A DNA stretch of 64,000 nt. Source: Pelagicoccus sp. SDUM812003 (GTDB lineage Bacteria > Verrucomicrobiota > Verrucomicrobiia > Opitutales > Opitutaceae). The notes beneath the pieces are model-generated. The model had not been told where the DNA came from and ran no database searches. It saw only the letters and a list, made by a program, of their open reading frames with translations. Positions 43,390 through 60,773 of the stretch are shown here, one piece after another. Position numbers and translations under genes: made by a program. The stretch covers positions 1 to 64,000 of the forward strand of contig NZ_JARXHY010000009.1 in NCBI RefSeq assembly GCF_031127815.1. Direction: 5' to 3'. How positions within the stretch are numbered: the first letter of the stretch is position 1; every line of letters starts with the position of its first letter.

Positions 43390-46002
43390 GTGTCACCTGG
43401 ATTTCGATCAAGCCGCCTACGCCACGCCGCCACCCTCGCGCTGCTCTTCGCCCTCGCGCTCGTCTCGACGCGTCCAGTCATGGCGGTGGACTTCGACGCT
43501 CCGCCTCCCAACCTCGACACAGCCCGAAAGCTCTACGAGTCGGGAAACTACCAGCAAGCCATCGACTACGCCACCAACGGGCAGGAGCTCGACCCATGGA
43601 TTTCGACCTGGGAGGTCATCAAGTCCCGTTCCTTGCTGGCCCTCGGACGCTACGAAGACGCCTACCGTAGTCTGAGCGCTTTCGTCGACGACCGACAGTA
43701 CGAGCTGCTGCCACGCCTGCTCCTGCGAGAGGCCTGTCTCTATACCGCTCGCTACGAAGAGGCTCGCAGCCAGTACGACGCCCTCGGCTTTCTGGTAAAC
43801 GAATACTCGCGCCGCTACGGCTACAACCCTGAGGACATCGTATCCGTAGGCCGCATCGCCGAACTGTACGAGGTGGAGCCGAAGATCGTTCTGGAAAGCT
43901 TCTACCGTCGCGCCCAGGAGCTGCGCACCGCTCCCGCCTCCGCCTTCCTCGCCGCGGGAGATCTGGCTCTGGACAAACACGACTACCAGCTCGCCTCGAA
44001 GACCTTTCAGCAAGGGCTCGAGTCCTTTCCCGAAAATCCCGACCTGTGGCACGGCCTGGCTGAGTCATTTCGAGAGGACGACCGCAGCAAGCTCGCAGAA
44101 TACGCCAGCCGAGCTCTGGAGATCAACCCCAAGCACACTGCCACGCTCTGCCTGCTGGCGGAAAACCACATCGCCGCCGAGTCTTACCCAGCCGCCGAGA
44201 CCTTGCTCGACATGGCCTTGCAGACCAACCCGCTCTCGCCCCATGCCCTTTCGCTCAAAGCTTCCATCGCCTACATAAAAAACGACAACGCGCGGGGCGA
44301 CGAGCTGCGGGCCGCGGCCCTCTCCACCTGGACCAGCAATCCCTCCGTCGACTACCAGATCGGCCTCCAGCTCTCGCGCAAATACCGATTCGAAGACGCC
44401 GCCACTTCCCAGCGCATCGCCCTCTCGCTGGACGAAACCTTCACCCCCGCTCGCATCCAGCTCGCTCAGGATCTGCTCCGGCTCGCCCGTAACGAGGAGG
44501 CCTGGAAGCATGCCGAGCGCGTGTATCGAGAAGATCCATACAACATAGCCGCCTACAATCTCGTCACCTTGGAGGAACGTCTCTCGCAGTTCGCCACGCT
44601 GGAGTCGGAGCGCTTTCTGGTGCGCATGAGCTCCACCGAGGCTCCCATCTACGGGCAACGCGTCTTGAACCTGCTCGAAAACGCCTACGCCACCTTGTCG
44701 GAGCGCTACGGTATCGAGCTCCCGCTGAAAACCACCGTCGAGATCTATCCCAATCCTGCCGACTTCGAAACCCGCACCTTCGGCATGCCTGGCACGCCAG
44801 GCTTTCTCGGCGTCTGCTTCGGACCGGTTTTCACCATAAACAGCCCTGCCAGCCGGGCCAACAACTGGGAGGCGGTGCTCTACCACGAGTTTTGCCACAG
44901 CATCACCCTTACCCTTAGCCAAAACCGCATGCCCCGCTGGCTCTCGGAGGGCATCTCCGTCTACGAGGAGCGATTGGCCAATCCCGCTTGGGGCCAGCGC
45001 ATGAGCGCCAACTACCGAGACCGCATCCTCAGCGGCGCCATGCAGACCATCGGCGACATGAGCTCCGCTTTCCTCAAAGCCGAAGACGGAGAGGACATCC
45101 AGTTCGCCTACTTCCAATCCTACCTCGTAGTCGATTTCCTAATACGGGAGCATGGCATGGAAGCGATGCGAGGCCTCCTGGCTGATCTCGGGGAAGGGGT
45201 GGAGGTCAATCAGGCCATCGCCAAGCGCTTCGCTCCGCTGCCCCAACTCGACGAGGCCTTCGCCTCCTTCGCCCAGGAGCAAGCCCGCCAGCTAGCCGGC
45301 GACTATCGATTCAGTCCGCCTGACTCGCCCTTCGCTTCGGCGCTGCTGCTACTGCAACCGAAAAAGGACTATCGCCTCGCCCTGCAAGACGGTCGGGCCT
45401 TGCTCGAGCAGGGAAACTGGGAACAAGCCGTCGCGGCCCTGGAGCCTCTCGTCGCCGAAGCCGGCTACCTGCCAGGCGAGGAAAACGCCCACTGGCCGCT
45501 CGCTCGCGCCTACCGCGAACTGGGCCAGGAGCAAAAGGAGATCGAGACCCTGCGAGCGATCACCCGTCACGAGGCAGGGCGCCTTGGCCCGGTGGAGCGC
45601 CTGCTGGAGCTTTCCCTTTCGCGACAGGACTCTGAAAGCGCGTTCAAATGGGCCAACGCCTGGATCGCCATCAACCCCATGGCGGAAACGCCGTGGCGGG
45701 CGCTGCTGCGGTCCGCGATCGACAACGAACGCTCCGACTACGCGGCCGAAGCGGCTCGCTCGCTCATCGCCCTCAACCCCCCAGACAAACCTTCGCTGCA
45801 CTACCAGCTGGCGGAACTGCTGCAGACCAGCGACGCCCCTGCGGCCAAACGTCACGTGATGCTCGCCCTGCAGGACGCACCCCGCTTCCAAAAGGCATAC
45901 CTTCTGCTCGACAAGCTGCAAAAGGCCATCGCCGCCGAAAACCGGCAAACGCAAACCGATCCCCTGAACGCTCTCGATCTTGACAACAACTTCTTCCAGT
46001 AG
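43390..46002 (+). CDS. Secreted TPR protein with peptidase-MA-like gluzincin domain
   Basis: An 870-residue exported protein starting at a GTG, which is needed to keep the signal peptide (ATLALLFALALVSTRPVMA, cut near residue 32). Residues about 45-390 and 640-860 are tetratricopeptide-like repeats (LDTARKLYESGNYQQAIDYA; LDMALQTNPLSPHALSLKAS). The central part (about 400-560) is a peptidase MA/gluzincin domain with YHEFCHSITL (HExxH, about 499) and RWLSEGISVYEE supplying the third ligand Glu. It opens the 14 kb operon and overlaps the DUF4159 gene. The role is inferred to be in periplasmic protein processing or assembly. Confidence 0.87.
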   Translation: MSPGFRSSRLRHAATLALLFALALVSTRPVMAVDFDAPPPNLDTARKLYESGNYQQAIDYATNGQELDPWISTWEVIKSRSLLALGRYEDAYRSLSAFVDDRQYELLPRLLLREACLYTARYEEARSQYDALGFLVNEYSRRYGYNPEDIVSVGRIAELYEVEPKIVLESFYRRAQELRTAPASAFLAAGDLALDKHDYQLASKTFQQGLESFPENPDLWHGLAESFREDDRSKLAEYASRALEINPKHTATLCLLAENHIAAESYPAAETLLDMALQTNPLSPHALSLKASIAYIKNDNARGDELRAAALSTWTSNPSVDYQIGLQLSRKYRFEDAATSQRIALSLDETFTPARIQLAQDLLRLARNEEAWKHAERVYREDPYNIAAYNLVTLEERLSQFATLESERFLVRMSSTEAPIYGQRVLNLLENAYATLSERYGIELPLKTTVEIYPNPADFETRTFGMPGTPGFLGVCFGPVFTINSPASRANNWEAVLYHEFCHSITLTLSQNRMPRWLSEGISVYEERLANPAWGQRMSANYRDRILSGAMQTIGDMSSAFLKAEDGEDIQFAYFQSYLVVDFLIREHGMEAMRGLLADLGEGVEVNQAIAKRFAPLPQLDEAFASFAQEQARQLAGDYRFSPPDSPFASALLLLQPKKDYRLALQDGRALLEQGNWEQAVAALEPLVAEAGYLPGEENAHWPLARAYRELGQEQKEIETLRAITRHEAGRLGPVERLLELSLSRQDSESAFKWANAWIAINPMAETPWRALLRSAIDNERSDYAAEAARSLIALNPPDKPSLHYQLAELLQTSDAPAAKRHVMLALQDAPRFQKAYLLLDKLQKAIAAENRQTQTDPLNALDLDNNFFQ

Positions 46003-46852
46003 AACGCCTCGCTCGCCGGACGTGTATCCGTTTTTCCATGCCATGCTGGTCTTGGCTACGGTCCTTATCGCCGGGCTCGCGGCTCCAGACGCCAAAGCTC
46101 AGCTGAGCGATCGAGCCGGCGTGCCGGAATGGGAGGTACCCACCCAGTTCAAGCACGACGTCTTCACCTTCGCCCGAGTGCGCTACGACTCCTTCGACGG
46201 TGGCGGCGGCTGGGGACGGCGCGGCGGCCGCTGGTCCACCGACTACCCGGACGCCGAGCTCAACCTCGCCTACCGACTGCAGCAGATGACTTCTCTGAAG
46301 GTGAACCCCGACTCCGCGGTGGTTCGCCTGGACGAAGACGATCTCGCCGACTACCCCTTTCTCTACATGGTCGAGCCGGGCAGGCTGATCTTTCGCGAAA
46401 GCGAAGTGACTGCCCTGCGGGACTACTTGCTCAATGGCGGATTTCTCATGGTGGACGACTTCTGGGGCGATTCCGAATGGGAGAATCTAAGCTACGAGCT
46501 CGGGCGCGTGTTCCCCGATCGCGAGATTCACGATCTCCCCCTGGAGCATCCGATCTTCCATATCGTCTTCGACCTGAAAGAGAAACCGCAGGTCCCGAGC
46601 ATCTACCACGCCCGATCCTACGAAGGCACCGGCATCACTTGGGAGACCGACAAAGGGCCGGGAGCGGAACATGTGCACTACCGGGCGATCTATGACGACA
46701 ACGGACGCATGTGCGTCATCATTTGCCACAATACCGATCTCGGCGACGGCTGGGAACGCGAGGGCGAATCCGAATGGTACTTTCACGAATTCGCCGAAAA
46801 GAAGGCCTACCCGATGGGCATCAATATCATCGTCTACGCCATGACCCACTAG
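45980..46852 (+). CDS. DUF4159 exported protein
   Basis: About 290 residues with a signal peptide (FHAMLVLATVLIAGLAAPDA, then KAQ). The domain is DUF4159: FTFARVRYDSF near the start, ADYPFLYMVEPGRLIFRESE, YLLNGGFLMVDDFWGD and later VIICHNTDLGDGWE. DUF4159 is a GATase1-like fold found next to MoxR/DUF58/BatA genes in planctomycetes, verrucomicrobia and other phyla; the function is unknown. The start is uncertain: TTG 45980 gives a basic N-region, while GTG 46022 and ATG 46043 are alternatives. It overlaps the preceding gene if 45980 is right. Confidence 0.85.
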   Translation: MTTTSSSRTPRSPDVYPFFHAMLVLATVLIAGLAAPDAKAQLSDRAGVPEWEVPTQFKHDVFTFARVRYDSFDGGGGWGRRGGRWSTDYPDAELNLAYRLQQMTSLKVNPDSAVVRLDEDDLADYPFLYMVEPGRLIFRESEVTALRDYLLNGGFLMVDDFWGDSEWENLSYELGRVFPDREIHDLPLEHPIFHIVFDLKEKPQVPSIYHARSYEGTGITWETDKGPGAEHVHYRAIYDDNGRMCVIICHNTDLGDGWEREGESEWYFHEFAEKKAYPMGINIIVYAMTH

Positions 46853-46884: not shown

Positions 46885-47874
46885 ATGAATACTACCGACG
46901 AACCTATCGACTCCCAATCCGCGCTCTTCGAGAAGCTCCAGAACGGTCGCCTGAAACTCGAAGCCGAGCTCTCCAAAGTGATCGTCGGACAAAAGGAAGT
47001 CACCCGCCAATTGCTCATCGCCTTGCTCTCCGGCGGGCACTGCATCGTGACCGGCGCCCCGGGTCTCGCTAAGACGCTGCTGGTGAAGTCCATCTCCCAA
47101 GTCTTCCAGCTGAACTTCCAGCGCATCCAGTTCACCCCCGACCTCATGCCGGCAGACATCACCGGCACGGAAATCCTCACCGACACCCCGACCGGACGGC
47201 AGATGACTTTCGTCCGCGGTCCAGTATTCACAAACCTGTTACTAGCCGACGAAATCAACCGCACGCCCCCGAAAACCCAATCCGCCTTGCTGGAGGCCAT
47301 GCAGGAGCACCAGGTGACAGCTGCCGGAGCGCGACACACCTTGCAGGAGCCTTTTTTCGTGCTGGCCACCCAGAACCCAGTGGAAATGGAGGGCACCTAT
47401 CCGCTACCTGAAGCTCAGCTCGACCGCTTTCTCTTCAACGTGCTCATCGACTACCTGCCAGAGGAAGACGAAATCGAAGTGGTCCGCCGCACCACCGCAG
47501 GCCCGAGCCAACGCATCGAACCGGTCTTCACCGCTCAGGAAATCATCGCCATGCAGGCGCTGGTGCGAGAGGTCCCGATCAGCAGCGACGTCATCCAATA
47601 CGCCGTGCAGCTCGTGGCCCGCACCCGCCCTGAATCGGAAAGCGCTCCGGACTACATTCGCAAATACGTGCAATGGGGCGCTGGCACCCGCGCCGCTCAA
47701 GCTCTCGTGCTCGCCTCCAAAGCCCTCGCCCTGTGGGAGGGCAAGGCCTACGCGAGCAAGGAACAGATCAAATCGCTGGCGAAACCTGTACTGCGTCACC
47801 GGATACTGCTCAACTACCGAGCGGAAGCCGAGTCCACCTCAGTGGAGCAGATCATCGAAAAACTGGTAGAATAG
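46885..47874 (+). CDS. MoxR family AAA+ ATPase
   Basis: A 329-residue AAA+ ATPase. Walker A GAPGLAKTLLVKS (about 58), Walker B LLLADEINRTPPKTQSALLE (about 115), sensor 1 LATQNPVEMEGTYPLPEAQL and the C-terminal lid are all intact. MoxR proteins act as chaperones that insert metals or assemble complexes with VWA partners, here the DUF58 and BatA-like proteins that follow. ATG 46885 is the start; the frame upstream is unrelated. Confidence 0.95.
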   Translation: MNTTDEPIDSQSALFEKLQNGRLKLEAELSKVIVGQKEVTRQLLIALLSGGHCIVTGAPGLAKTLLVKSISQVFQLNFQRIQFTPDLMPADITGTEILTDTPTGRQMTFVRGPVFTNLLLADEINRTPPKTQSALLEAMQEHQVTAAGARHTLQEPFFVLATQNPVEMEGTYPLPEAQLDRFLFNVLIDYLPEEDEIEVVRRTTAGPSQRIEPVFTAQEIIAMQALVREVPISSDVIQYAVQLVARTRPESESAPDYIRKYVQWGAGTRAAQALVLASKALALWEGKAYASKEQIKSLAKPVLRHRILLNYRAEAESTSVEQIIEKLVE

Positions 47875-47893: not shown

Positions 47894-48799
47894 GTGCCAA
47901 GCAACCCGTACAGCCCTACGACGTCCGTCGATCCCGAAGCCTTGCTCGCCATACGCGATCTGGAACTGCGGGCCCGAATCGTTGTGGAAGGCATCTGGGC
48001 AGGCTTGCATCGCAGCCCCTATCACGGCTTTTCCGTCGAGTTTTCCGAGTACCGCCAGTACAGTCCGGGAGACGATCTACGCTACCTCGACTGGAAGATT
48101 CTCGCTCGAACGGATCGCGAATACCTCAAGGTTTTCGAAGACGAGACGAACCTGCGTTGCCTCATCCTCGCCGACGCCAGCAAATCGATGGAGTTTGGTT
48201 CCGGTTCGTATTCTAAATTCGACTACGCTCGCACCATAGCGGCTACGCTATCCTACTTTCTCTCCAAACAGCGAGACGTAGTCGGCATCGCACGGTTCGA
48301 CAGCGCCATCACCGACTACCAGGAGCCCAAATGGCGCCCGGGTCACCTGAAACGGCTTTTCGCCTTGCTGGAGCGCCCCGCGGAAGGACAGGCCACCGAC
48401 TTGAAGGCGGCGCTCGAAGCCACGCTTCGACTCGCCCGCCGCCGCTCGCTTGTGATCCTGATTTCGGACTTTCTCAGCGATCCGCATGAATGGAGCTCGG
48501 AGCTGGCCTACCTACGCTCCATGGGACACGACGTGCGTGGGCTTCAGGTGCTCGATCCCGCAGAGGTCAACCTTCACTACGGCAAGGCCGCCTATTGGAA
48601 CGACGTGGAAACGGGAGAGCTTCGCTACGTCGATCCCGATTCCGCTCGCGACGACTACACCAAGCGGTTTTCGGAACGGCAGCGGCAAGTCGGATCCGCC
48701 TTCGCCTCAGCTGGAGCTCGCCTGCAAACCATCACCACCGACCAGCCCCTGGACCTGGCTTTGGTCGATTTCGTGAGGGAGCTTAGGAAAACGCGATGA
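47894..48799 (+). CDS. DUF58 protein (VWA-like)
   Basis: A 301-residue protein beginning at GTG 47894. The DUF58 signature is GFSVEFSEYRQYSPGDDLRY, followed by LDWKILARTDREYLKVFEDE. It contains a VWA-type metal-site motif ILADASKSMEFG (D-x-S-x-S, about 98). DUF58 proteins are the usual partners of MoxR ATPases. It follows moxR by 19 bases and overlaps the next gene by four. Presumed cytosolic or peripheral at the membrane. Confidence 0.92.
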   Translation: MPSNPYSPTTSVDPEALLAIRDLELRARIVVEGIWAGLHRSPYHGFSVEFSEYRQYSPGDDLRYLDWKILARTDREYLKVFEDETNLRCLILADASKSMEFGSGSYSKFDYARTIAATLSYFLSKQRDVVGIARFDSAITDYQEPKWRPGHLKRLFALLERPAEGQATDLKAALEATLRLARRRSLVILISDFLSDPHEWSSELAYLRSMGHDVRGLQVLDPAEVNLHYGKAAYWNDVETGELRYVDPDSARDDYTKRFSERQRQVGSAFASAGARLQTITTDQPLDLALVDFVRELRKTR

Positions 48800-50826
48800 G
48801 CTTCCTCGCCCCACTCTTTCTCGCCGGCTTGGCGTTGATCGCCGGACCGATCCTCTTTCACCTGATTCGACAGGCGCCGCGCAACCGCATCCCCTTCAGC
48901 TCCACCGAGCTGCTCGACCACAGTCAACCGAAGACTGAGAGTCGTCGACGTATCCAGAATCCCCTTCTCCTTATCATTCGCTGCCTAGTCGTCGCATTGC
49001 TCGCCTTGGCCTTCGCCCGACCGTTCTTCCCTGAACAATCTCTTTCTTCGGCCTCCTTCACCCCCTCGATCGATCGCGTGCTTCTCATCGACATGAGCGC
49101 CAGCATGCAGCGTCCCGGCGTGAGCGACAGTCTTGAGGAATCGGTCAGAGAAATCCTCTCCGCCGCTGCGCCCCAGTCGCGTATCAGCATATTCGGTTTC
49201 TCGGATACCGTCACTCCGATCGTAACAGCCGAGCAGTGGCAGAACTGGCCGATCGATCAGCGAACGCAGCTCGCCTTGCAGCGTATCGCCGCTACACCCG
49301 TCACCGATTTCCCGACACGACTCGACTTGGCCATCGAACACGGATTGGACGAGCTGGCCCGATTGGGCGAGCAAACAGAAGAAAAACGAATCGCCGAACT
49401 CATCGCGCTTTCCGATTTCGCCAAAGGCTCCTCATTCAGCGGCCTTGCCGGTCTGGACTGGCCTAACGAAACCTTTCTCAAGCGTATCCAGGTAGCCCCG
49501 ACGCCACCGCCAGTCAACGCCAGCCTTAGCTGGGCTGGCTGGGAGTGGAACGCCGAGCAACAGCTATTTGCGGAATTAAGACTTTCCCTCGACTCTCCTC
49601 CGGAGAAACCGCTCGACCTCTCAGTGCAAGCCTTCCATGCGATCGAGGCGCAACCTTTGAGCCAGCCCGTCACGGCAGTTCTCGCCGCGGGCAAGGGATT
49701 CGTCCCGATTTCCATTCCTCTAGCCACCGGCTCGGACGAGCTACCGATTCGCTTCGAGCTGTCCGGCGACGAGGTAGCGTTCGACAACCAACTCTATCGC
49801 GCTCCCAGGTTTATTCCCACTGTCACGATCGCCCTTCTGAGCGACGCCCAACTCGCCGACCCCCAACAAGCTCCCTACTTCATCGAAAAGGCGCTCAAGG
49901 GTATCGACAATCCTAGGACAAGACTTCTTCCGGTCGACTCGTTCTCGACAGACGCTGACCTGACAATTGTCGACAAGCCGCTCGACAGGCAAAGCCTTCA
50001 GCGCCTTCGGAGCGAAGCGCAAACGGGTGGAACCGCCTTCCTGATCGTATCCGATTCGAGCAAGGAAGACACCTTGCGAGCCCTTTTCGACGATCGCCAA
50101 TGGCAGATTGACGAAACGCTCGACCAAGACCTTCGCATCGGAGAGATCGACTTCGAACATCCGCTTTTCGAGCCCTTCGCCGATCCTCGCTTCAGCAATT
50201 TCGCCAACATCAACACCTGGAAAGCCCCTCGTATCCAGTTTCCTGATTCTCCTGACATACGAAAGCTCGCCTCCTACGACAATGGCTCCCCTCTCCTGCT
50301 AGAAGCGAAGCTGGGCGGCGGAACGGTGTTCGTATGGGCAGGCGACTGGTCGCCTCGCTCCTCCCAGTGGGCCCTCTCCAGCAAGTTCGTTCCGTTCCTG
50401 TACCAGCTTTGCCTCCAGTCAATCGGCGGTCCTCCGCCCGCCAACAACCTCTATCTCGATCGCGCTCTGCTCGCTCAGCAGTCTATCCGAGCGGACCAGC
50501 TGCCCATCACCCGAGCCGGGATGTATCAGGTCGAAGGCCGCGGAAACGCCCCCTGGCTCGCCCTGCAGGTCGATGCCAGCGAAAGCTCCCTTCACCCCAT
50601 CGACGAGGATGAATGGGATAGATTGGGTCTACCAGAATACGATCCAAGCCGAATCAGCCAAGTCGCCCAGTCGATCGCCGCTGCCAGCAGTCGCGAGAGC
50701 TCGCAACAGCTAGAAGAAAGGCAGGCCGTTTGGAAGTGGACCCTATGGCTCGTCATCCTCCTCCTGCTCAGCGAAAGCTTGCTGGCGACCAAACCAGCTA
50801 GGACGAAAGGAGAACAGGCAGCGTAA
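48796..50826 (+). CDS. BatA/VWA-type membrane protein
   Basis: A 676-residue protein. The N-terminus is of the BatA type (FLAPLFLAGLALIAGPILFH; FSSTELLDHSQPKTESRRR), with two membrane helices (about 5-24 and 55-75). A VWA domain follows at about 90-250 with the MIDAS start LLIDMSASMQRPG. The middle is a beta-rich/GATase-like region and the last 20 residues form a third helix (WTLWLVILLLLSESLLAT). Topology leaves the VWA part outside the cytosol. It overlaps both neighbours in the operon. Confidence 0.88.
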   Translation: MSFLAPLFLAGLALIAGPILFHLIRQAPRNRIPFSSTELLDHSQPKTESRRRIQNPLLLIIRCLVVALLALAFARPFFPEQSLSSASFTPSIDRVLLIDMSASMQRPGVSDSLEESVREILSAAAPQSRISIFGFSDTVTPIVTAEQWQNWPIDQRTQLALQRIAATPVTDFPTRLDLAIEHGLDELARLGEQTEEKRIAELIALSDFAKGSSFSGLAGLDWPNETFLKRIQVAPTPPPVNASLSWAGWEWNAEQQLFAELRLSLDSPPEKPLDLSVQAFHAIEAQPLSQPVTAVLAAGKGFVPISIPLATGSDELPIRFELSGDEVAFDNQLYRAPRFIPTVTIALLSDAQLADPQQAPYFIEKALKGIDNPRTRLLPVDSFSTDADLTIVDKPLDRQSLQRLRSEAQTGGTAFLIVSDSSKEDTLRALFDDRQWQIDETLDQDLRIGEIDFEHPLFEPFADPRFSNFANINTWKAPRIQFPDSPDIRKLASYDNGSPLLLEAKLGGGTVFVWAGDWSPRSSQWALSSKFVPFLYQLCLQSIGGPPPANNLYLDRALLAQQSIRADQLPITRAGMYQVEGRGNAPWLALQVDASESSLHPIDEDEWDRLGLPEYDPSRISQVAQSIAAASSRESSQQLEERQAVWKWTLWLVILLLLSESLLATKPARTKGEQAA

Positions 50827-53800
50827 TGGATCGTCAACTACACCCCATCAAAAAAGGGCTCACGCCGCGTTTGCGCATTCTTTTGGATCCCGTAGCGCGG
50901 CGCCTCATCGCGCGCGACTGCCAGCGCAGTCGGACACGACTGTTCCTTTTCGCAGGCTTGCTCGCCTTGCCGCTGTTAGCCTTAGCGGCGCTGTACCCAC
51001 AGTGGGCTTCCTTGCTCCTAGTCTCCATGGCCCTCGGCGGCATCGCTCTCATCATTCTTTCATGGCTCAAAGAGCGTTCAGTCGACTACGACTACCTCGC
51101 CGCAGCCAGAGCGATCGAAAAGGAGCATCCCGAACTCAACCAGGCCCTCATCACTGCCGTGGAGAGCGAGCTTTCAGGTAAATCATCATTCCTTGGTCGC
51201 CGCGTTGTGGAGGACGCCTTAGCCCATCCGAGTCGGAAAAACTGGGCGGAAGCGGCCACCCGATCCGAAACCCGTTCGCGTATCCAGTATTCCAGTGCGC
51301 TAGCATCTTTCTTCGTCCTGATGCTCGCCGCATACTACATCGCCCAGCAGGAGACCGCCCTCACCCCTGGACAGCCTGGGATCGACCTCGCCGATCGGAC
51401 CCTGACCGTCGAACCTGGGAATACCGAAATTGAACGCGGCTCCTCGCAAGTCGTTATCGCCCGCTTCACTGGTTCCCCTCCTGACGAAGCCTTTATCGAG
51501 TTCTCCCCCTCGCCCAACAGCAGCGATTCCTCCGCCAAGATGGTCAAAAGCCTGTCCGACCCAGTTTTCGCATTCACCTTGAGCTCAGTCGAGCAGTCCA
51601 CCGAGTACCGGATACGCTATGGAGAGCAGACCAGCCAGACCTACTCGCTCTCCGTTTACGACCTTCCTCAGCTGACCAAAGCGGACGCCTCGCTCTCCTT
51701 TCCTGAATACACCGGATGGCCCGATCGAGACGTTCCCGATACGCTTCGCGTTTCCGCGATCGAGGGTACCCAGCTTCAATACCGTTTCAATACTAACAAG
51801 CCCGTGGCGAGCGCCGTTCTGGAAGACGAGACCGGCGAACGCTTTCCGCTCCTGCCAAGCAACGAAGCATCTACTCAATTCGTATACGAAAAGAAAATAC
51901 AAAGCAGCCTGCGCTTCACACTGCATCTCGATGATCTAGACGGCAGGAGCAATGCTTTGCCGCCTCGCATCCAGATCCAAGCCATCGCCAATCAACGGCC
52001 CACGCTACGAGTGGATACTCCACGCGGCGATCAACGGTACTCTCCCATCGAAGAGATCGTCTTCTCCGGCGAGGCGAGCGACGACTTCGGGCTGCTCGAC
52101 TACGGAATCGGTCTGGTTTATTCCAGCGATCGCCCGATTGAAACCTCACTGCAGAAGGAAAGCGAAGCAGAAGAAAACGCGCTTAGCGCCCAGCTCCGTC
52201 ATCAAGTCGCTCTCGAGCGGAAATCTCTCCAGCCCAGAGACTCATTCAGTTGGTACCTCTGGGCCAAGGATTTCGGTCCCGACGGCGAGATTCGGCACAC
52301 CACGGGAGATCTCTACTTCGCGGACATTCGCCCCTTCGACGAAATCTTTCGCGAGCAGGATCCCGGAGGTGGCGGACAGGGGGGCATGGGCGGCCAAGGG
52401 ATGGAATTGATCGAGAAGCAGCGGCAAATCACGATATCTCTGTTCCGTATCAAAAATACTGAGACACCGCCAGAGAGCAGGATAGAGGACCTGGTGACGC
52501 TGCAGCATTCCCAGCTCGAGGCCTACAGCGAACTCCAGCAAATGCACCAGATGTTAGAAAACCCGAGCGACAAGCAAATCGCCTCCGACGCCCTCCGCTT
52601 CATGGAAGGAGTCGAGCTGAGCTTGACTCAGGCCATCGATGACTCGACCGACCAGCCTCTTCCCGCCGCTTGGTCCGACGCCCAATCAGCCTACCAGGAG
52701 CTGATCAAGCTGAACGATTCCGAGTTCAATGTCGCTCGTTCTCAGAACCAGTCCGGCGGAGGCGGCTCAGCTTCCCGCAGTCAGCGGCAGATCGACGAGC
52801 TCGACTTTCGAAATGAGGAAAACCGCTACGAAACCGCCACCCAGGCTCAGTCGCTCGCTTCTCCCGAAGAGCGACAGAATCTCGAACTGATCGCCAAACT
52901 CAACGAGCTTTCGCGACGCCAAGGCGACCTCAACGAGCGTATCCAAGAAATGCAGGCCGCTATCGCCAACGCGACTACAGAAGAGGAGCGACGAGAAGCG
53001 GAACGGGAGCTCAAGCGTCTCGAAGAGGAGCAGCGCCAGTTGGTGCAAAACGCGGACGAAGCGATACAGCAGGCCGCCAATCGCCAAGGCGCAAGGCAGG
53101 CTCGCGAGCAACTGCAGGAAGCGAGAGAGCGCATGCAGCAGTCTGCGGAGGACCTTCAGCAAGGCGACGTCTCACAAGCGCTCGCCGCCGGTAGCCGCGC
53201 GGAAGAGACGCTGGAACGGAGCAAGGAGGACATGAGAAACCGAAGCTCCAGCGCCTTCTCCGAAGCGATGCGCGAGGCCCGCCGCCAAGCTCGCGAACTG
53301 GCAGAGCAACAACAGGAACTGCAACAGCAGGTGAGCGATTTCGAGGCCGAGTTCTCTCGGCGTCTCGACGATTCCGAACAGCGCGACGAGCTGGCGAATC
53401 GCATCGACAAGCAATCCGACCGAGTGGAAGCCTTTCTGGAAGAAATGCGCCAGGTCGCCGAAGGGGCTGAATTCGCCGAACCCATGCTCTATCGCGAGCT
53501 GTATCAGGTTCTTCGCGACAGCAACGGAGCCGAGTTCGAGGAACGCTACACTCAAAGCGAGCAACTGCTTCGACAAGGATTTCTCCAGAACGCAAATCGC
53601 GAGCAGCAAGGACTCGCCGAAGATCTGGAGCGCTTGAGCGATCGCGTATCCCAAGCGGCGGAAAGCGTGCTCGGCGACGAGAGTTCGGAGCTAGCCTTCG
53701 CAGAAGAGGAGATCGAATCGCTGCAGCAGCAGCTTGATTCGGAACGCCAGTCTTCAGAAGGCCAAGCCCGATCCCAGGAATCCTCCAGTCCAACCGCCTC

Positions 53801-54212
53801 TGGAGGGCAAAATGGCAACCAATCCATTGAGGACCGCATTCGCAGCGCTCTTTCGGAAATTGGAAACCGCAACCAAGGTCCGCTGACTGGCAGCGGCTAT
53901 GAGGACTGGATCGATCGTTTGAGCACCGTAGAGGCCTTGATCGACGATCCTATCGCTAGAGCTCGCATCGAGGAAGCGCGCGAGCGCGCAGAGGACGCTC
54001 GCAGAGACTTCAAGCGTCACGGCGAGCTCCCCCAGTGGGAAATGATTCAAGACGAGATCGCCGCTCCCTTGAACGATGTAAGCGTGTGGTTGCGTTCCGA
54101 GTTGAACCGTATTGAAAACCCGGATGCGCTCCAACCGATCGACTCGGACCCAGTTCCGGAAACCTACGAAGCCTTCGTTCGCCGCTATTACGAATCACTT
54201 GGCGAGCAATGA
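50826..54212 (+). CDS. DUF4175 giant membrane/coiled-coil protein
   Basis: An 1128-residue protein. Three N-terminal membrane helices (about 37-55, 60-78, 155-175) are followed by an extracytoplasmic beta-rich region (190-500) of the DUF4175 kind. It carries LTKADASLSFPEYTGWPDRD and a glycine-rich GGGGQGGMGGQGMELIEK. From about 560 to 1030 it is almost entirely coiled coil, very rich in Glu, Gln, Arg and Ala (EERREAERELKRLEEEQRQL), before a short helical tail. It could span or tether across the periplasm. Its first base is the last base of the preceding stop (TAATG). Confidence 0.85.
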   Translation: MDRQLHPIKKGLTPRLRILLDPVARRLIARDCQRSRTRLFLFAGLLALPLLALAALYPQWASLLLVSMALGGIALIILSWLKERSVDYDYLAAARAIEKEHPELNQALITAVESELSGKSSFLGRRVVEDALAHPSRKNWAEAATRSETRSRIQYSSALASFFVLMLAAYYIAQQETALTPGQPGIDLADRTLTVEPGNTEIERGSSQVVIARFTGSPPDEAFIEFSPSPNSSDSSAKMVKSLSDPVFAFTLSSVEQSTEYRIRYGEQTSQTYSLSVYDLPQLTKADASLSFPEYTGWPDRDVPDTLRVSAIEGTQLQYRFNTNKPVASAVLEDETGERFPLLPSNEASTQFVYEKKIQSSLRFTLHLDDLDGRSNALPPRIQIQAIANQRPTLRVDTPRGDQRYSPIEEIVFSGEASDDFGLLDYGIGLVYSSDRPIETSLQKESEAEENALSAQLRHQVALERKSLQPRDSFSWYLWAKDFGPDGEIRHTTGDLYFADIRPFDEIFREQDPGGGGQGGMGGQGMELIEKQRQITISLFRIKNTETPPESRIEDLVTLQHSQLEAYSELQQMHQMLENPSDKQIASDALRFMEGVELSLTQAIDDSTDQPLPAAWSDAQSAYQELIKLNDSEFNVARSQNQSGGGGSASRSQRQIDELDFRNEENRYETATQAQSLASPEERQNLELIAKLNELSRRQGDLNERIQEMQAAIANATTEEERREAERELKRLEEEQRQLVQNADEAIQQAANRQGARQAREQLQEARERMQQSAEDLQQGDVSQALAAGSRAEETLERSKEDMRNRSSSAFSEAMREARRQARELAEQQQELQQQVSDFEAEFSRRLDDSEQRDELANRIDKQSDRVEAFLEEMRQVAEGAEFAEPMLYRELYQVLRDSNGAEFEERYTQSEQLLRQGFLQNANREQQGLAEDLERLSDRVSQAAESVLGDESSELAFAEEEIESLQQQLDSERQSSEGQARSQESSSPTASGGQNGNQSIEDRIRSALSEIGNRNQGPLTGSGYEDWIDRLSTVEALIDDPIARARIEEARERAEDARRDFKRHGELPQWEMIQDEIAAPLNDVSVWLRSELNRIENPDALQPIDSDPVPETYEAFVRRYYESLGEQ

Positions 54213-54221
54213 CCTGCTGAT

Positions 54222-56573
54222 ATGATTTTCCCAAACAACACGCCCTGGATCCTGGTCGCAATACTTGCCGCTGCGCTGATCTTCCTGTCCTGGCGTTCCT
54301 GGAGAGGCAGCTCTCAAAGAAGCGCCGCAGCGATCGCGCTGCGATCCGCAGGCATTTTGCTGCTGGCTCTGGCGCTCCTAAACCCGCAACGGGTATTCGA
54401 ACGTCCCATACAAGGTCAGAACATTATCGCATTGCTCGCCGACGACAGCCTAGGCATGCGAATCAAGGATCCCGGAGAGCTCCTGGATCGGGGCGAGAGG
54501 ATGAGACAGGCCCTGCATGGTCGCTCCTCCGGATGGTTGACCGATCTGGAAGAGGACTACCAAGTTCGTAGCTATCGATTTTCGAAATCGCTTCAACGCA
54601 TTTCCAGCTACGATTCGCTCGCATTCGAAGGCCAAAGCAGCAAGATCTCCTCCGCCCTGAGCAGCGTCCAGCAACGTCTCGACGAGCGACCCCTCGCCGC
54701 GATCGCCCTTCTCACCGACGGCAATGCCACCGACCAGCCGCTCAGCGATAGCCAGCTCGCCGAGCTGCCTCCCATATTCCCAGTGCTGATAGGCGAAGCC
54801 ACGTCAGTACCAGACCTTTCAATACAGAGGGCTGAATTGAACGTCTCGGCATTCGGCGACGCTCCTCTCAGCTTGGAGGCCAAGTTCCGCCTGCAAGGCC
54901 TTGGCCCCTCCAAAGTGAAGACCACCCTCTCCCAAATCACGCCTACCACCATGAGGCGCGATCTTCCCATCGAAGAGAGGACCCTCACCTTCGAAGACGA
55001 ACAGCAGGAGATGATACAGCGCTCGCAATGGCAAGGCAGCGGAGGTGGCATGCAGTTCTTTGAGCTCCGCGCCGAACTCGCTACCGAAGATGGTCTAGCC
55101 ACACCCTCCGAAGCCACCCTAACCAACAACCGGCGTCTGCTGGTAGCGGACCGAGGTAAGGATCGCTATCGACTGCTCTACGTGACCGGTAGACCGAACT
55201 GGGAATACAAGTTTATGAATCGCGCCTTGAGCGAAGATCCTCAGCTGGAAATGGTCGGCCTGCTACGAGTGGCGAGCAAGGAGCCTCAGTTCGAATTCAA
55301 AGGACGGGCAGGCGAAAACAGCAACTCCCTCTACCGCGGCTTCGGCCGCGAAGACGAGAACGAGCGCTACGACGAGGCGGTGCTCATTCGCATGAATACG
55401 CGAGATAAGGATGAGCTCTTCGGAGGCTTTCCCAATACCGCGCAAGAACTTTTTGAATACGACGCGCTCCTCCTCGACGATATCGAAGCGGACTTCTTCA
55501 CCTTCAATCAACTCGCCCTGATCCGAGACTTCGTTCGCCAAAGGGGAGGCGGACTCATGATGCTCGGAGGTGTGAACAGCTACGAGGACGGCGGCTACCA
55601 TGACTCCCCGCTCGCCCAGCTTCTGCCCTATTACCCCACTCCATCCGCCTCCGACGAAACCACGGATCGGCAGGTCGCGTGGGACCTAACGCGAGATGGC
55701 TGGGTCGAGCCATGGATGCGCATCCACGATCTGGAGACAGTGGAGCAGCAGCGCATCAGCCAGATGCCTCTCCTGCGCGTTTACAATGTTTTCGGAAAAC
55801 CGAAACCCGGCTCGCGGCAACTGGCTGTGCTCGAGGAAGCGGACGGCATGGAACGGCCCGCTCTCCTGGTTCGAAACTTCGGATCGGGTCGCGTGGCAAG
55901 TCTGGCGGTGGGCGACTTGTGGCGTTGGGGCATGCAGGACGCGGCGTCTCAAGCGGATCTGGCCCAGTTCTGGCGTCAGGTCTCCCGATGGCTGGTGAAG
56001 GACAATCTCAGCCGGTTCAGCCTCTCGGCAACCGTTTCCGAATCTGGAGAAACCAGCCTCCGAGCCCGTGCCCTCGACCCCGAATTTCTTCCTTTGCGCT
56101 CCAGCCGCGCCCTAGCGACCGTCACCCGAATCGCATCCGCCTCCGATCGCTCGCAAACCAGCGAAACGCTGCTCCAGGTCGACATGGCGACTGTATCCGA
56201 CAGTCCAGGACAATTTACGTTAGACCTACCAGCGCTCGAGGATGGAATCTACCATGCAAGCGTCGAAGTCCTCGATGGCAGCGGAGCCATTCTCGGAGAA
56301 GCGGAAACCGGCTGGGCGCTGGATGCTCTATCGGCGGAATTCGCTTCCTTGTCACCAAATCGCAACTACCTGGAGAGAATCGCACGCGCTACAGGAGGAG
56401 AGGTGCTCGAGCTTTCGGAACTGCCGGAGCTGGGGGCGCAGATTCGATCCCAGCCTGCTCCCGCCACCGAGACCCTGCTCAAGCCGATCTGGCACAACAA
56501 CCTATTCTACCTCGCGGCGCTCGCGGCGTTTCTAGGCGAATGGCTCATGCGAAGAAAGAGAGGTTTGGCGTGA
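54222..56573 (+). CDS. VWA/GATase1-like membrane protein
   Basis: A 783-residue protein with two N-terminal membrane helices (about 8-25 and 40-57), a VWA-like region (IIALLADDSLGMRIKDPGEL) and a GATase1-like domain in the middle. That domain has YDALLLDDIEADFFTFNQLA, FVRQRGGGLMMLGGVNSYED and GGYHDSPLAQLLPYYP; the usual Cys is replaced by Gly/Val, so no amidotransferase chemistry is expected. A C-terminal helix (FYLAALAAFLGEWLMRRKR) closes it. It is co-transcribed and overlaps the pseudo-caspase gene by four bases. Confidence 0.86.
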   Translation: MIFPNNTPWILVAILAAALIFLSWRSWRGSSQRSAAAIALRSAGILLLALALLNPQRVFERPIQGQNIIALLADDSLGMRIKDPGELLDRGERMRQALHGRSSGWLTDLEEDYQVRSYRFSKSLQRISSYDSLAFEGQSSKISSALSSVQQRLDERPLAAIALLTDGNATDQPLSDSQLAELPPIFPVLIGEATSVPDLSIQRAELNVSAFGDAPLSLEAKFRLQGLGPSKVKTTLSQITPTTMRRDLPIEERTLTFEDEQQEMIQRSQWQGSGGGMQFFELRAELATEDGLATPSEATLTNNRRLLVADRGKDRYRLLYVTGRPNWEYKFMNRALSEDPQLEMVGLLRVASKEPQFEFKGRAGENSNSLYRGFGREDENERYDEAVLIRMNTRDKDELFGGFPNTAQELFEYDALLLDDIEADFFTFNQLALIRDFVRQRGGGLMMLGGVNSYEDGGYHDSPLAQLLPYYPTPSASDETTDRQVAWDLTRDGWVEPWMRIHDLETVEQQRISQMPLLRVYNVFGKPKPGSRQLAVLEEADGMERPALLVRNFGSGRVASLAVGDLWRWGMQDAASQADLAQFWRQVSRWLVKDNLSRFSLSATVSESGETSLRARALDPEFLPLRSSRALATVTRIASASDRSQTSETLLQVDMATVSDSPGQFTLDLPALEDGIYHASVEVLDGSGAILGEAETGWALDALSAEFASLSPNRNYLERIARATGGEVLELSELPELGAQIRSQPAPATETLLKPIWHNNLFYLAALAAFLGEWLMRRKRGLA

Positions 56574-57529
56574 TTTCTCCAGTGAGATTCCTTTTCGCAA
56601 TAGCGACTGCCTGGTCCATGTTGACGAGTAGCCTGCCCGCTCAGACCCTACTGCTGATTCAGGGAGCGGCTGGCGAGGAGAGCTTTCGCGAAGGTTTCGA
56701 TCGAGCCGCAGACACTTGGGTCGAACTGGCGGAGCAAGCGGATCTGCAGACCAAGCGTATCCAACAAACGGAGCAAGGCATCGAACCTGCGGACCAAGTC
56801 GTTTCCTGGATCGCAGAGCAGCCAGAGGATTCCGAACTCTGGATCGTATACATTGGCCACGGTACGCATTCCTCGACCGCGACCAAACTCAACTTGGTAG
56901 GGAAGGACCTGAGCGTCCAGGACATCGCGGCCGCGCTGAGAGCCCATACCGGCAACTTGATCTTTATTCACGGCGGCTCGGCGAGCGCCCCCTTCATCCC
57001 CGCGTTATCGGGCGAAAAGCGGGTTATCATCACCGCGACCCGAAGCGGATCCGAGCAGAACTACGCCCGATTCGGCGAATACTTCGCTCAAGCCCTGGCG
57101 AGCGATCAAAGCGATCTGGACAGGGACGGGAGCGTCTCGCTACTTGAAGCCTATCTCAGCGCGTCGCAAGCCGTTGATTCCTATTACTTCGAAGCCGGAC
57201 GCCTCGCCACGGAACACGCTTTGATAGATGACAATGGGGATGGGAGAGGAAGCCAGGCAGAGCTATTCGACGGCTTGCGCGCAGCACAGGGCGTCGATAT
57301 CGCCCGAGCTGATGGACGACTCGCTCGCCGCGTTTCCCTGAAGCCGCCTGATGAGAGTATCCAGCTAACAAGCGCGCAGCGCGAACTGAGGAACAAACTA
57401 GAGCTCCAACTGGAACAACTGCAAGGAGACCGCGATTCGATGAGCGACGCGGAGTATTTTCGCGAGCTGGAGGCAATCCTCAGCGAACTCTCCGTGCTGT
57501 ACCTCCCGAGCGAAGCCGAAGACTCCTAG
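56570..57529 (+). CDS. Secreted caspase-like protein without catalytic cysteine
   Basis: A 319-residue protein from GTG 56570 (GTGA overlap). A signal peptide (VRFLFAIATAWSMLTSSLPA) precedes a caspase-fold domain. The catalytic-His strand is present as LWIVYIGHGTHSS (about 90-100). The second strand, which normally ends in D-x-C-x-S-G, here reads NLIFIHGGSASAPFIPALSG (about 128-147) with no cysteine. The following VIITATRSGSEQNYARFGEY is typical of the family. An EF-hand-like DLDRDGSVSLLEAY comes next (about 184). It is the last gene of the operon. Proteolytic activity is not expected; a structural or substrate-binding role is inferred. Confidence 0.8.
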   Translation: MISPVRFLFAIATAWSMLTSSLPAQTLLLIQGAAGEESFREGFDRAADTWVELAEQADLQTKRIQQTEQGIEPADQVVSWIAEQPEDSELWIVYIGHGTHSSTATKLNLVGKDLSVQDIAAALRAHTGNLIFIHGGSASAPFIPALSGEKRVIITATRSGSEQNYARFGEYFAQALASDQSDLDRDGSVSLLEAYLSASQAVDSYYFEAGRLATEHALIDDNGDGRGSQAELFDGLRAAQGVDIARADGRLARRVSLKPPDESIQLTSAQRELRNKLELQLEQLQGDRDSMSDAEYFRELEAILSELSVLYLPSEAEDS

Positions 57530-57563: not shown

Positions 57564-57600
57564 AAAGGCGTGGCAGCCGATATCCGCCACGCCTTTCCTA
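57564..57600. terminator. Bidirectional terminator hairpin
   Basis: AAAGGCGTGGC (57564-57574) pairs perfectly with GCCACGCCTTT (57586-57596) around an 11-base loop. It separates the end of the 14 kb operon (57529) from the convergent Ric gene (57632). T residues at both ends allow use from both sides. Confidence 0.8.
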
Positions 57601-57631: not shown

Positions 57632-58354
57632 TCACCTTCTCAACCTTTCGAGGACAGCTGGAAACAATTCCGCGTTCTCCAGATTGGCATGACGCCTAAG
57701 GTCCTCCTCGAATTCCTCCAATCCGGAAAACAGAGCCCGGTAGGTGTTGCATGCATGCTCGGGCGCTTGATAGTCGTCACTCAACGTTTTGATGCGAGCC
57801 ATGGCCTCGCCCGCTACATCGAAATTCCATCGCATAGCGCTGAGCAGCTCGTCCGCATGCGCTGGCTCGAGCGTCAGCAACGGATCGGCCAGTCGATGTA
57901 TTTGGGGGAAGATTTCAAGCTCCTCCTTGGCGAGCTGCTTAAGGAGTTCGAACGAGAGGTCATCGAAGGTATCAAGGATTTCCACAAGCCGTGGTTCCCT
58001 TTCCCCATGAACCGTAGCGACTCGCTTCGCCATGGCCAGCAGACGTGGCGTTTCCTCGCGAAAACGATCATGATACGTATTCACAATATAGTGACATAGA
58101 TCCGAAAGTCGCATTGTGGCAGGACTCACCTCCTCCAGCGTCTCCGCCTCCATCTCTCCCTCAAGCAAAACAACCAAGTCATCAACCTGAAGCCCTTTGC
58201 TTTCACACGCTTCGCGCAAGGTTCTCTTTCCTTGGCAACAAAAGTCGATCCGATGCTTCTGGAAGATCCTAGAACGCCCAGGGCGCTCCGCCACGAGGTC
58301 TCCGATGGGACGATTCTCGAAACCTGCGTTTCTAAACGATATGTTATTCTCCAT
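57632..58354 (-). CDS. ric: Ric/YtfE/ScdA iron-sulfur cluster repair di-iron protein
   Basis: A 240-residue protein. The N-terminal DUF542 domain has IFQKHRIDFCCQGKRTLREA with Cys39-Cys40. A hemerythrin-like part (80-240) has ligands in CHYIVNTYHDRFREETPRLL, KEELEIFPQIHRL and HANLENAELFPA. Ric restores iron centres damaged by nitric oxide. ATG 58354 fits the family start; AAAGGAG lies directly before it. It follows the NO reductase gene by 34 bases, and the two probably form a NO-response operon. Confidence 0.9.
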   Translation of the reverse strand: MENNISFRNAGFENRPIGDLVAERPGRSRIFQKHRIDFCCQGKRTLREACESKGLQVDDLVVLLEGEMEAETLEEVSPATMRLSDLCHYIVNTYHDRFREETPRLLAMAKRVATVHGEREPRLVEILDTFDDLSFELLKQLAKEELEIFPQIHRLADPLLTLEPAHADELLSAMRWNFDVAGEAMARIKTLSDDYQAPEHACNTYRALFSGLEEFEEDLRRHANLENAELFPAVLERLRR

Positions 58355-58388
58355 CTCCTTTGTATTCTGTATTCTGTTACACGTTCTA

Positions 58389-60773
58389 TCACACCAAAGC
58401 ATGCTCCGACTCCGGACTGGCAGACCCAGGTCTGACTCGTCCACCGGCCTTACCCCCAAGTTCGAGCTCCGATCCTCCCTTCGCTAGCTTGAAGACGTGC
58501 AGGACGAAGGCTCCCACGCCTACCGCGAAGAGGATATCTCCCACGGTTCTAAGCCAACGCAGCGCCTCCATGGTATCGCTCTGCATGAATTCGGCGGATC
58601 TCGCGTACCACATGCCCTGCTCCAGGCTCGCCCAGACCTGCCAAAGACCGATCGGCAGCAGGGATAGCAGGACCATGGCGGTCAGACCCGCGTTCAATCC
58701 CCAGAACGATACCCAGATCAGTCGATCGTTCTCAACGGCGTTTGGACGCAGGCCCTTCAAGCAGAACAGAACTAGTCCGATGCCGAGCATGCCGTAAACT
58801 CCGAAGAGCGCCGTGTGACCATGCACTGCCGTCGTATTCAATCCTTGCATATAGTAGAGCGCGATGGGTGGATTGATCAAAAATCCGAATATGCCCGCTC
58901 CCACCAGGTTCCAGAAAGCAACCGATACGAAGAAGTAGATCGGCCACTTGTATTCCTTCACCCATGACGCGGATCTCGAGAGTTTCAGATTTTCAACCGC
59001 TTCGAATCCGATCAGTACCAATGGAGCGACCTCCAGAGCGCTGAATACCGAACCGAGAGCCAGTATGGATGTCGGCGTTCCGGAAAAATAGATGTGGTGA
59101 AACGTGCCGATGATTCCGCCGAAGAGAAAGATAGTGGTCGAAGCCAGGGCGGCCTTGGTCGCGAAGACGCTTCCTATCAGTTTCAAGCGAGTGAAGAGAA
59201 ATGCGATCACCACGGTGGCGAACACTTCGAAGAAACCCTCTACCCAAAGATGGACCACCCACCAGCGCCAGTACTCAGCCAACGCTAGATGCGTATCCTT
59301 CCCCCACATCAAACCAGCTCCGTAGAACAAGGCGATCGCAGTCGAGGCTACCAGAAAGAGAGCGATCAGGTGACGGTTCTCGCTCGGCTTGCGCAAAGCA
59401 GGCCAAATCGCCCTCACCATCAATCCAAGCCACAGAAACAGCCCAACAAACAGGAAGATCTGCCAGAATCGGCCAAGATCCACGTATTCATAACCTTGAT
59501 GCCCAAACCAGAAATTCGTTTCCAAACCAATCGTCTGACGCGTTCCAAGCCACTCCCCGAAGAGGGAGCCAAACACGATCACTACCAAACAGACAAAGAG
59601 CAGATCGACGCCGATACGCTGAAACTTCGGTTCGTATCCAGAAACCGCTGGCCCAAGAAAGAGACCGGTAGCCAGCCAAGCGGTTGCGATCCAGAAAATG
59701 CCAAGCTGCGTATGCCAAGTCCGAGTGACGGAGTACGGAATCCAGTCCGCGAGCGGAAATCCGAAAAAGCCATCGCCTTCTACCCCGTAGTGCGCGGTGA
59801 GAATGCCCATCGCTATCTGCAGCAGAAGCAGCAACCCTACGACCGCAAAGTACTTGTAGGTTGCCCGCATCGATGCAGTGATCGTCAAAGTCAGCTTGGG
59901 AGCGGACCCGGGAGCCCTGTGCTCCTCCTCTTTCGATGCGGCGATCCTCCAAGCCAAAATCGCGATGCCGACCAGCAGGAGAATCACGCTAATGATAGAC
60001 CAAAGCACCACGCCCGAACTTGGGGCATTGCCGATGGCATCCTCCGCTGGCCAATTGTTGGTATAGGAAATCGCAGACTTGCTATCCCAAAGATTTCCTT
60101 CTCGATATTCATCGCGAACCGTGGTGGTGGCCCAGGTGGTCCAGAAGAAGAAAGCGTTCAACTGATGCTGGCGCTGTTCGTCCTTGATGGTATTTCGGGC
60201 GATCGCGTAGTAGTCCCTCAACTCCACAGGATCGTATCCTCCATCCGAATACGGCTCGACCGCTGAGGCGAACGCGGTATCGTCTCCGAATATCGCCGCG
60301 TAGTAGGCCGAAAGAGATTTAATAACCTCCGCCCTCTCCTCGGAAACGTTCAACGCTCCGCTTTCCGAATCATAGGTGTTGCGTCTCATTTGCTCCTTGA
60401 CCAGCCGATCCAACCTCAGTCGATCCAAATCGCTCAGCTCGGCGTAGGGTTTGCTCGTTTCTCGCTCGGACAGTCGATCGCGCAGCATGAGCAGCTCCCG
60501 ATGCGCCCAATCCGCATTCCAGTCCGGAGCGACATAGGAACCGTGTCCCCAGATGCTCCCGACTTCCTGTCCACCGATCGACTGCCAGACATTCTGTCCG
60601 GTCCTGATATCCTCTCCAGTGAACAAGGTCTCCCCGCTCTCCGACCGCACGCGTTCCGGTATCGGAGGAGCCTTTCGGTAGATTTCCAGCCCATAGTAAC
60701 CAAGCGTCGCGAAGGACGCCACGATCACTGCGGACAAAGCCAGCCAGTAGTTCGCATATTTGAATCTAAGCAT
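58389..60773 (-). CDS. norZ: Quinol-dependent nitric oxide reductase (qNOR)
   Basis: A 794-residue heme-copper-type enzyme that reduces NO to N2O with electrons from quinol. It has the fused N-terminal qNOR domain (TGQNVWQSIGGQEVGSIWGH, about 60-80) and about fourteen membrane helices. Helix patterns with heme and FeB ligands are EYWRWWVVHLWVEGFFEVFA, GTFHHIYFSGTP and AVHGHTALFGVYGMLG; the glutamate VEGFFE is conserved. The C-terminus is charged. A 26-base palindrome lies 20 bases before its start. It is detoxifying rather than respiratory in this context, since no nitrite reductase is visible. Confidence 0.93.
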   Translation of the reverse strand: MLRFKYANYWLALSAVIVASFATLGYYGLEIYRKAPPIPERVRSESGETLFTGEDIRTGQNVWQSIGGQEVGSIWGHGSYVAPDWNADWAHRELLMLRDRLSERETSKPYAELSDLDRLRLDRLVKEQMRRNTYDSESGALNVSEERAEVIKSLSAYYAAIFGDDTAFASAVEPYSDGGYDPVELRDYYAIARNTIKDEQRQHQLNAFFFWTTWATTTVRDEYREGNLWDSKSAISYTNNWPAEDAIGNAPSSGVVLWSIISVILLLVGIAILAWRIAASKEEEHRAPGSAPKLTLTITASMRATYKYFAVVGLLLLLQIAMGILTAHYGVEGDGFFGFPLADWIPYSVTRTWHTQLGIFWIATAWLATGLFLGPAVSGYEPKFQRIGVDLLFVCLVVIVFGSLFGEWLGTRQTIGLETNFWFGHQGYEYVDLGRFWQIFLFVGLFLWLGLMVRAIWPALRKPSENRHLIALFLVASTAIALFYGAGLMWGKDTHLALAEYWRWWVVHLWVEGFFEVFATVVIAFLFTRLKLIGSVFATKAALASTTIFLFGGIIGTFHHIYFSGTPTSILALGSVFSALEVAPLVLIGFEAVENLKLSRSASWVKEYKWPIYFFVSVAFWNLVGAGIFGFLINPPIALYYMQGLNTTAVHGHTALFGVYGMLGIGLVLFCLKGLRPNAVENDRLIWVSFWGLNAGLTAMVLLSLLPIGLWQVWASLEQGMWYARSAEFMQSDTMEALRWLRTVGDILFAVGVGAFVLHVFKLAKGGSELELGGKAGGRVRPGSASPESEHALV

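Follow-up and report, generated by a model that had tools for sequence, protein, structure and literature searches.

In a 64,000-nucleotide stretch of the genome of Pelagicoccus sp. SDUM812003 (contig NZ_JARXHY010000009.1, positions 1 to 64,000, forward strand; hereafter the window), we studied the gene at 56570-57529 and its 319-residue product, C13L. This protein appears to be a relative of the clan CD peptidases, the legumains and caspases, that contains no cysteine, and it stands at the end of an operon for a MoxR ATPase and Bat-type membrane proteins, which we propose it may serve by binding rather than by cutting. The gene and the features of its product are these:

56570..57529, + strand: C13L, 319-residue Cys-free putative pseudo-peptidase of the legumain/caspase-like clan CD (translation, fold prediction, profile comparison, column counts)
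56570..56644, + strand: probable signal peptide, residues 1-25, suggested by an N-terminal helix at residues 4-18 with low predicted local distance difference test (pLDDT) values after it
56855..56866, + strand: GHGT, residues 96-99, including His97 at the catalytic His position, invariant in the 111 full-length domains counted below
56972..56995, + strand: GGSASAPF, residues 135-142, the putative nucleophile turn, with Ser137 at the Cys column by profile comparisons, one of which gives a gap
57113..57148, + strand: EF-hand-like loop 1, residues 182-193, with D182, D186, S190 and E193 invariant in the 111
57227..57262, + strand: EF-hand-like loop 2, residues 220-231 (DDNGDGRGSQAE), with D221, N222 and D224 invariant in the 111

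The reading frame runs unbroken from its GTG at 56570 to 57529, and the translation contains GHGT, NLIFIHGGSASAPFIPALSG (residues 129-148), VIITATRSG (152-160), DLDRDGSVSLLE (182-193) and DDNGDG (220-225), with no Cys among all 319 residues. A preliminary description of this DNA had reported an exported, caspase-fold protein with a conserved histidine, the GHGT and VIITATRSG segments and an EF-hand-like calcium loop, but without a catalytic cysteine, at the end of a MoxR-type operon. Most of that account agrees with what we found, although there are two such loops rather than one. Export to the periplasm is probable from the N-terminal helix, the low model confidence that follows it and the sequence itself; a simple hydropathy scan of C13L gave no segment above threshold.

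To what class of fold does C13L belong? AlphaFold2, run on an alignment of 81 relatives, gave a model with a mean pLDDT of 86.6 and a predicted template modelling score of 0.83. When this model was compared with known structures by VIA-align, legumains came top (4nol, Z 18.7, 2.6 Å over 191 residues), with metacaspase 4 (Z 17.6) and the glycosylphosphatidylinositol transamidase (Z 15.6) lower, whereas Foldseek ranked caspase-9 first (E 9.7e-7; TM-score, normalised by query length, 0.43). The predicted structure has the clan CD layout, a strand at 89-95 leading into GHG and one at 130-134 leading into GGSAS. Because the AlphaFold2 confidence, the VIA-align result and the Foldseek matches concur, we regard the predicted caspase/legumain fold as well supported. 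A search of viral structures found a best match at E 6.4e-7 and ten at ≤0.001, mostly caspase-like proteins of large viruses. At the level of profiles, the C13L family matched a set of six Cys-bearing C13-like proteins from the same phylum with a probability of 93.7 and E 1.9e-7, a C14 profile of nine sequences with 86.7 and E 4.3e-6, and a C14 profile built on three sequences only with 2.4; in addition, 11 of 81 aligned relatives reached Peptidase_C13 at E ≤0.1 (best 0.002). The caspase-like fold named in the preliminary description stands and, the Foldseek order notwithstanding, C13 rather than C14 is favoured as the nearest kin by VIA-align and by the stronger C13-like profile comparison.

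Full-length relatives, far above chance, were found in both Verrucomicrobiota and Planctomycetota. Among 387 sampled genomes of the former, 27 had a match to C13L (19 full length), and among 246 of the latter, 31 did (17 full length); a scan of contigs yielded 116 relatives, and 80 of them were retained. Four duplicate loci (L035, L042, L044, L084) were dropped. Conservation was counted over the 111 rows, out of 141 distinct ones, that fill more than 90% of the model; the domain of C13L itself is among them, as are two domains more than 98% identical to each other, and the six same-genus proteins L232-L237 lie outside the count. A 95-row table omits 11 remote rows, which are tabulated apart. 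The best same-genus relative of C13L scored E 2.2e-113, and the gene is present in seven of the eight genomes of the genus.

His97 is present in 111/111 domains, and, gaps aside, so are G35, W91, G96, N108, G111, D113, D182, D186, S190, E193, E215, D221, N222, D224, G249, E278 and, at the model end, Y311. The nucleophile turn is more variable: column 137 holds Ser in 99 domains, Ala in nine, Glu in two, Pro in one and Cys in none, column 139 holds Ser in 109 and Gly in two, and column 135 holds Thr in 49, Cys in 30, Gly in 25, Leu in four, Ala in two and Ser in one.

Where, then, would the cysteine stand? Four of five informative profile comparisons place the Cys-equivalent column of C13L best at Ser137. 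In the comparison with the six C13-like proteins Ser137 faces Cys, and in that with a divergent, mainly operon-linked Planctomycetota group (probability 100, E 2.3e-39) it faces the Cys of L199; this divergent group itself aligns Cys to Cys with both the C13-like set (E 2.4e-10) and the C14 set (E 1.6e-12). The exception is the comparison of the family with the nine-sequence C14 set, in which the Cys falls opposite a gap. A MAFFT alignment likewise puts the Cys of three remote relatives with the canonical C-x-S-G (L204, L209, L210) in column 137. An alternative alignment that brings an active-site Cys into C13L is impossible, the protein having none, and a sequencing error or recent pseudogene was rejected, since the frame is open and all seven proteins of the genus read HGG[SA]AS and lack Cys in the domain. 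The lack of Cys is real, and it is old, because column 137 is never Cys in the 111 domains; the absence noted in the preliminary description is therefore confirmed, although it is not peculiar to C13L.

Cysteines do occur nearby in relatives. Cys135, two residues before the Cys column, is found in most Planctomycetota members and in three Verrucomicrobiota rows (L068, L098, L103), and in 15 of the 30 domains that have it, it is the sole Cys of the matched domain, so a disulfide within the domain does not explain those 15. Of the members for which Bat-type neighbours were recognised, only L199, L203 and L227 carry Cys137 itself; all three have another Cys nine residues further along, which is absent from their Ser137 sisters L198 and L201. 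L199 passes the Pfam cut-offs for both C13 and C14; L198 and L203 have no Pfam match. In trees of 32 and 35 chosen rows, L199, L203 and L227 group as a single clade that lies within Cys-less members, beside the pair L198/L201; the smaller tree is without L204, L209 and L210, and in the larger, which has them, the clade is still nested, with at least three state changes, L209 and L210 being long, gappy and of unsure placement. A single gain of Cys137 in this clade, perhaps for a disulfide, is the shorter account and the one we tentatively favour over retention of an ancestral Cys, since the nesting and the second Cys suggest a later gain. At the loci checked for L204, L209 and L210 (L238, L222, L223) no Bat/MoxR neighbour was recognised, the contigs partly limiting the view and L222 being short. 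The suggestion in the preliminary description of a recruited pseudo-enzyme draws some support from this distribution, in that the canonical relatives have no recognised Bat/MoxR neighbour whereas operon members, L199, L203 and L227 excepted, lack Cys137.

The operon upstream of C13L contains the following genes:

45980..46852, + strand: DUF4159 protein (PF13709 by Pfam), start uncertain
46885..47874, + strand: MoxR AAA ATPase (AAA_3, PF07726 by Pfam), the start being the ATG after the DUF4159 gene
47894..48799, + strand: DUF58 protein (PF01882 by Pfam)
48796..50826, + strand: BatA-type protein (PF07584 by Pfam; two_anch, TIGR02226, by NCBIfam) with a von Willebrand factor A (VWA)-like domain
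50826..54212, + strand: large coiled-coil-like membrane protein of 1128 residues (open reading frame, hydropathy)
54222..56573, + strand: GATvWA, the partner gene (Pfam, co-occurrence), a membrane protein with a glutamine amidotransferase (GATase)-like domain, GATase1_like (PF07090), and a VWA-like part recognised by motif

The order is therefore DUF4159-MoxR-DUF58-BatA-coil-GATvWA-C13L, and C13L ends the operon, as had been claimed, because its GTG overlaps the stop codon of the preceding gene and the gene that follows is encoded on the opposite strand. BatA and DUF58 contain DxSxS motifs and GATvWA a DDSLG, which we take to be motifs of the metal ion-dependent adhesion site. GATvWA has no Cys in the whole protein. 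Class-I GATases need a Cys, so the GATase1_like domain of GATvWA and C13L look like a pair of inactive enzymes encoded by adjacent genes.

How firmly are the two genes linked? A GATvWA homolog lies upstream on the same strand at 74 of the 80 loci, or 74 of the 77 that are testable, with a gap of at most 24 bases in 73 of them and of 746 bases in L109; of the other six loci, L051, L077 and L093 begin at the gene and are uninformative, and L070, L089 and L094 are truly without GATvWA. Full-length C13L and full-length GATvWA occur in identical sets of 19 of the 387 genomes (uncorrected for genome kinship), and within the genus seven of eight genomes have the two genes together while the eighth has neither. 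Divergent members occupy the same slot in divergent BatA-coil-GATvWA operons (L211, L212, L213, L239); L214 is in such an operon with BatA out of reach, and in L218 and L165 a DUF4159 gene lies between. Among loci fetched for distant GATvWA matches (L165-L175), L165 and L166 have a remote C13L within the flank of about 1.5 kb. A second, shorter, Cys-less paralogue lies directly before MoxR-DUF58 in L217, L219, L220 and L221, so there are at least two separate ties between the clan CD fold and MoxR operons. Next to L215, L216, L222 and L238 no neighbour from the operon was recognised, and beside L223 there is only a weak TPR match, on the opposite strand. In PADLOC, six of the seven operon proteins had no match at E 0.01; MoxR scored only 18.0 bits against DolB and 15.3 against mad8.

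What might such a protein do? We would give about an even chance to the reading that C13L, a relative of C13 and clan CD long without catalytic activity, has become a permanent component of a MoxR/Bat-type envelope machine, in which it binds rather than cuts; a role in binding or regulation is suggested because the protein lacks Cys and is kept as the last gene of one conserved operon in two phyla. Several observations pull the other way. C13L itself has no Pfam or NCBIfam peptidase match (for PF01650, none at E up to 1), a search of the PDB by sequence gave nothing useful and a profile search only three chance-level matches (best E 0.73). Cys135 may have a thiol role in Planctomycetota. A further 25 of the 387 genomes have a GATvWA match (E ≤1e-20, mainly in the GATase half) without a full-length C13L, although of these G229 and G238 have a remote C13L and G221 has one by profile only. 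And the counts at Ser137 and His97 would be seen in a Ser hydrolase as well.

Could Ser137, which the preliminary description had considered as a nucleophile, have taken the place of the cysteine? C13L would then be a serine peptidase on a caspase fold in which His97 activates Ser137, a possibility that the facing of Ser137 with the catalytic Cys, as well as those counts, would suit but that we judge improbable, since in 12 of the 111 domains residue 137 is Ala, Glu or Pro while all the other invariant residues are kept, and one of the seven genus proteins (L235) has Ala137. Ser137 is common but dispensable, and because of these proteins a Ser nucleophile is unlikely to be the shared function of the family, even if it might act in single members. 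The available text of PMC6426788, moreover, lists Ser-bearing metacaspases and orthocaspases among presumed pseudo-enzymes. Quite improbable, too, is that part of the family is still a cysteine enzyme, with its thiol at 135 in many Planctomycetota or kept at 137 in L199, L203 and L227, and that activity was lost elsewhere, C13L included: the 15 domains in which Cys135 stands alone, the Pfam matches of L199 and the Cys137 of the remote L204, L209 and L210 speak for it, but column 135 lies off the Cys column, and the nested position of the operon-linked Cys137 clade, with its second Cys, suggests a late gain. The possibility that C13L is purely a scaffold, its fold and calcium-like loops holding neighbouring proteins while the cleft is vestigial, is less remote than these, though doubtful. 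Many of the invariant residues do belong to the loops and the C-terminal portion while the nucleophile turn varies; however, Gly96, His97, Asn108, Gly111 and Asp113, located at the former active-site His or shortly beyond it, are likewise the same in all 111, which a vestigial cleft would not need.

If C13L is instead a non-cutting binding subunit, how might it work? The large domains of BatA and GATvWA would face the periplasm, judging from hydropathy and a positive-inside reading, and an exported C13L would be there too. Calcium or structural ions at the two EF-hand-like loops might order the former substrate cleft. With His97, this cleft could grip a peptide, or a loop of a partner protein, and leave it uncut; loading or release of the ligand might fall to the VWA proteins, on which MoxR and DUF58 would act from the cytosol through the membrane. 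More tentatively, and on balance we think it unlikely, C13L could be a calcium-gated, non-cutting periplasmic receptor whose legumain-like cleft captures a specific peptide and passes it to VWA proteins powered from the cytosol by MoxR; if so, two dead enzymes, C13L and its GATase-like neighbour, would form part of a cross-membrane chaperone or sensing machine. To our knowledge, the function of the membrane members of MoxR/VWA operons is poorly understood, and a pseudo-peptidase that two phyla conserve in a single type of operon offers a handle on them, with the hint that the machine may handle peptides or protein tails outside the cytoplasm. The residues that occur naturally at 137 (Ser, Ala, Glu, Pro, Cys), together with Cys135, could serve to separate binding from catalysis.

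Among known systems, C13L most resembles Peptidase family C13 (legumain, PF01650), with which it shares its best structural match, its His-bearing HG turn and the profile similarity, but it differs in having no nucleophile Cys and no Pfam match and in that it is probably an exported subunit encoded in an operon, not an independent protease; the legumain and caspase topologies are themselves described as identical (PMC4357240). With the pseudo-orthocaspases described in the available text of PMC6426788 it has in common a prokaryotic caspase fold with a replaced dyad, including Ser at the place of the Cys. That text, however, emphasises Tyr-Ser and like replacements in p20 proteins, abundant in photosynthetic groups, whereas the C13L family has an invariant His and is linked to a Bat-type MoxR operon; Verrucomicrobia and Planctomycetes are named nowhere in the main text of that paper as available. 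Cys-His conservation of 64% is given for Planctomycetes metacaspases in the accessible part of PMC3501461. Inactive caspase domains also occur in the MoxR-vWA ternary conflict systems, where, according to the portions of PMC7159879 available, about 70% of the caspase domains in the effector position are inactive and dominant-negative or merely peptide-binding roles are proposed for them (section 12). The MoxR and vWA context is shared, but those domains are fused to the vWA component, while C13L is a separate, probably exported protein of a fixed operon with no convincing PADLOC match. The Bat and MoxR-VWA operons of PMC3557215 and PMC5700661 likewise set a MoxR ATPase beside VWA membrane proteins, and the opening abstract text of the two papers mentions no caspase-fold subunit. 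In the literature searched there was no description of the C13L family and no mention of DUF4159, and the family has no Pfam or NCBIfam model of its own. Prokaryotic pseudo-caspases have thus been described already; the novelty, as far as this literature, Pfam, NCBIfam and PADLOC go, lies in a C13-like family without Cys, probably exported, that in two phyla is the fixed last gene of a Bat-type MoxR operon.

Some observations concern other caspase-like genes and the surroundings of C13L. A second match to C13L in its own genome (G000:C23, E 0.476) was taken as chance, and that genome has no Peptidase_C14 match at E 0.001. True Peptidase_C14 domains were seen in four related genomes, two of them from the same genus, in runs of three to four adjoining frames of about 1120-1340 residues (G389:C11, G393:C8, G396:C154, G088:C1). 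Six remote relatives (L022, L023, L025, L026, L028, L031) have the caspase-like domain at the N-terminus of frames of 785-894 residues, which continue into what we presume, from a GDCKDKA motif seen by eye, to be a transglutaminase-type core. On the 3' side of C13L no terminator was found by the tool used; by eye, an inverted repeat can be made out near 57565-57600, and beyond it, at 57632-60773 on the - strand, lie hemerythrin-like and nitric-oxide-reductase-like genes, named by eye and apparently unrelated.

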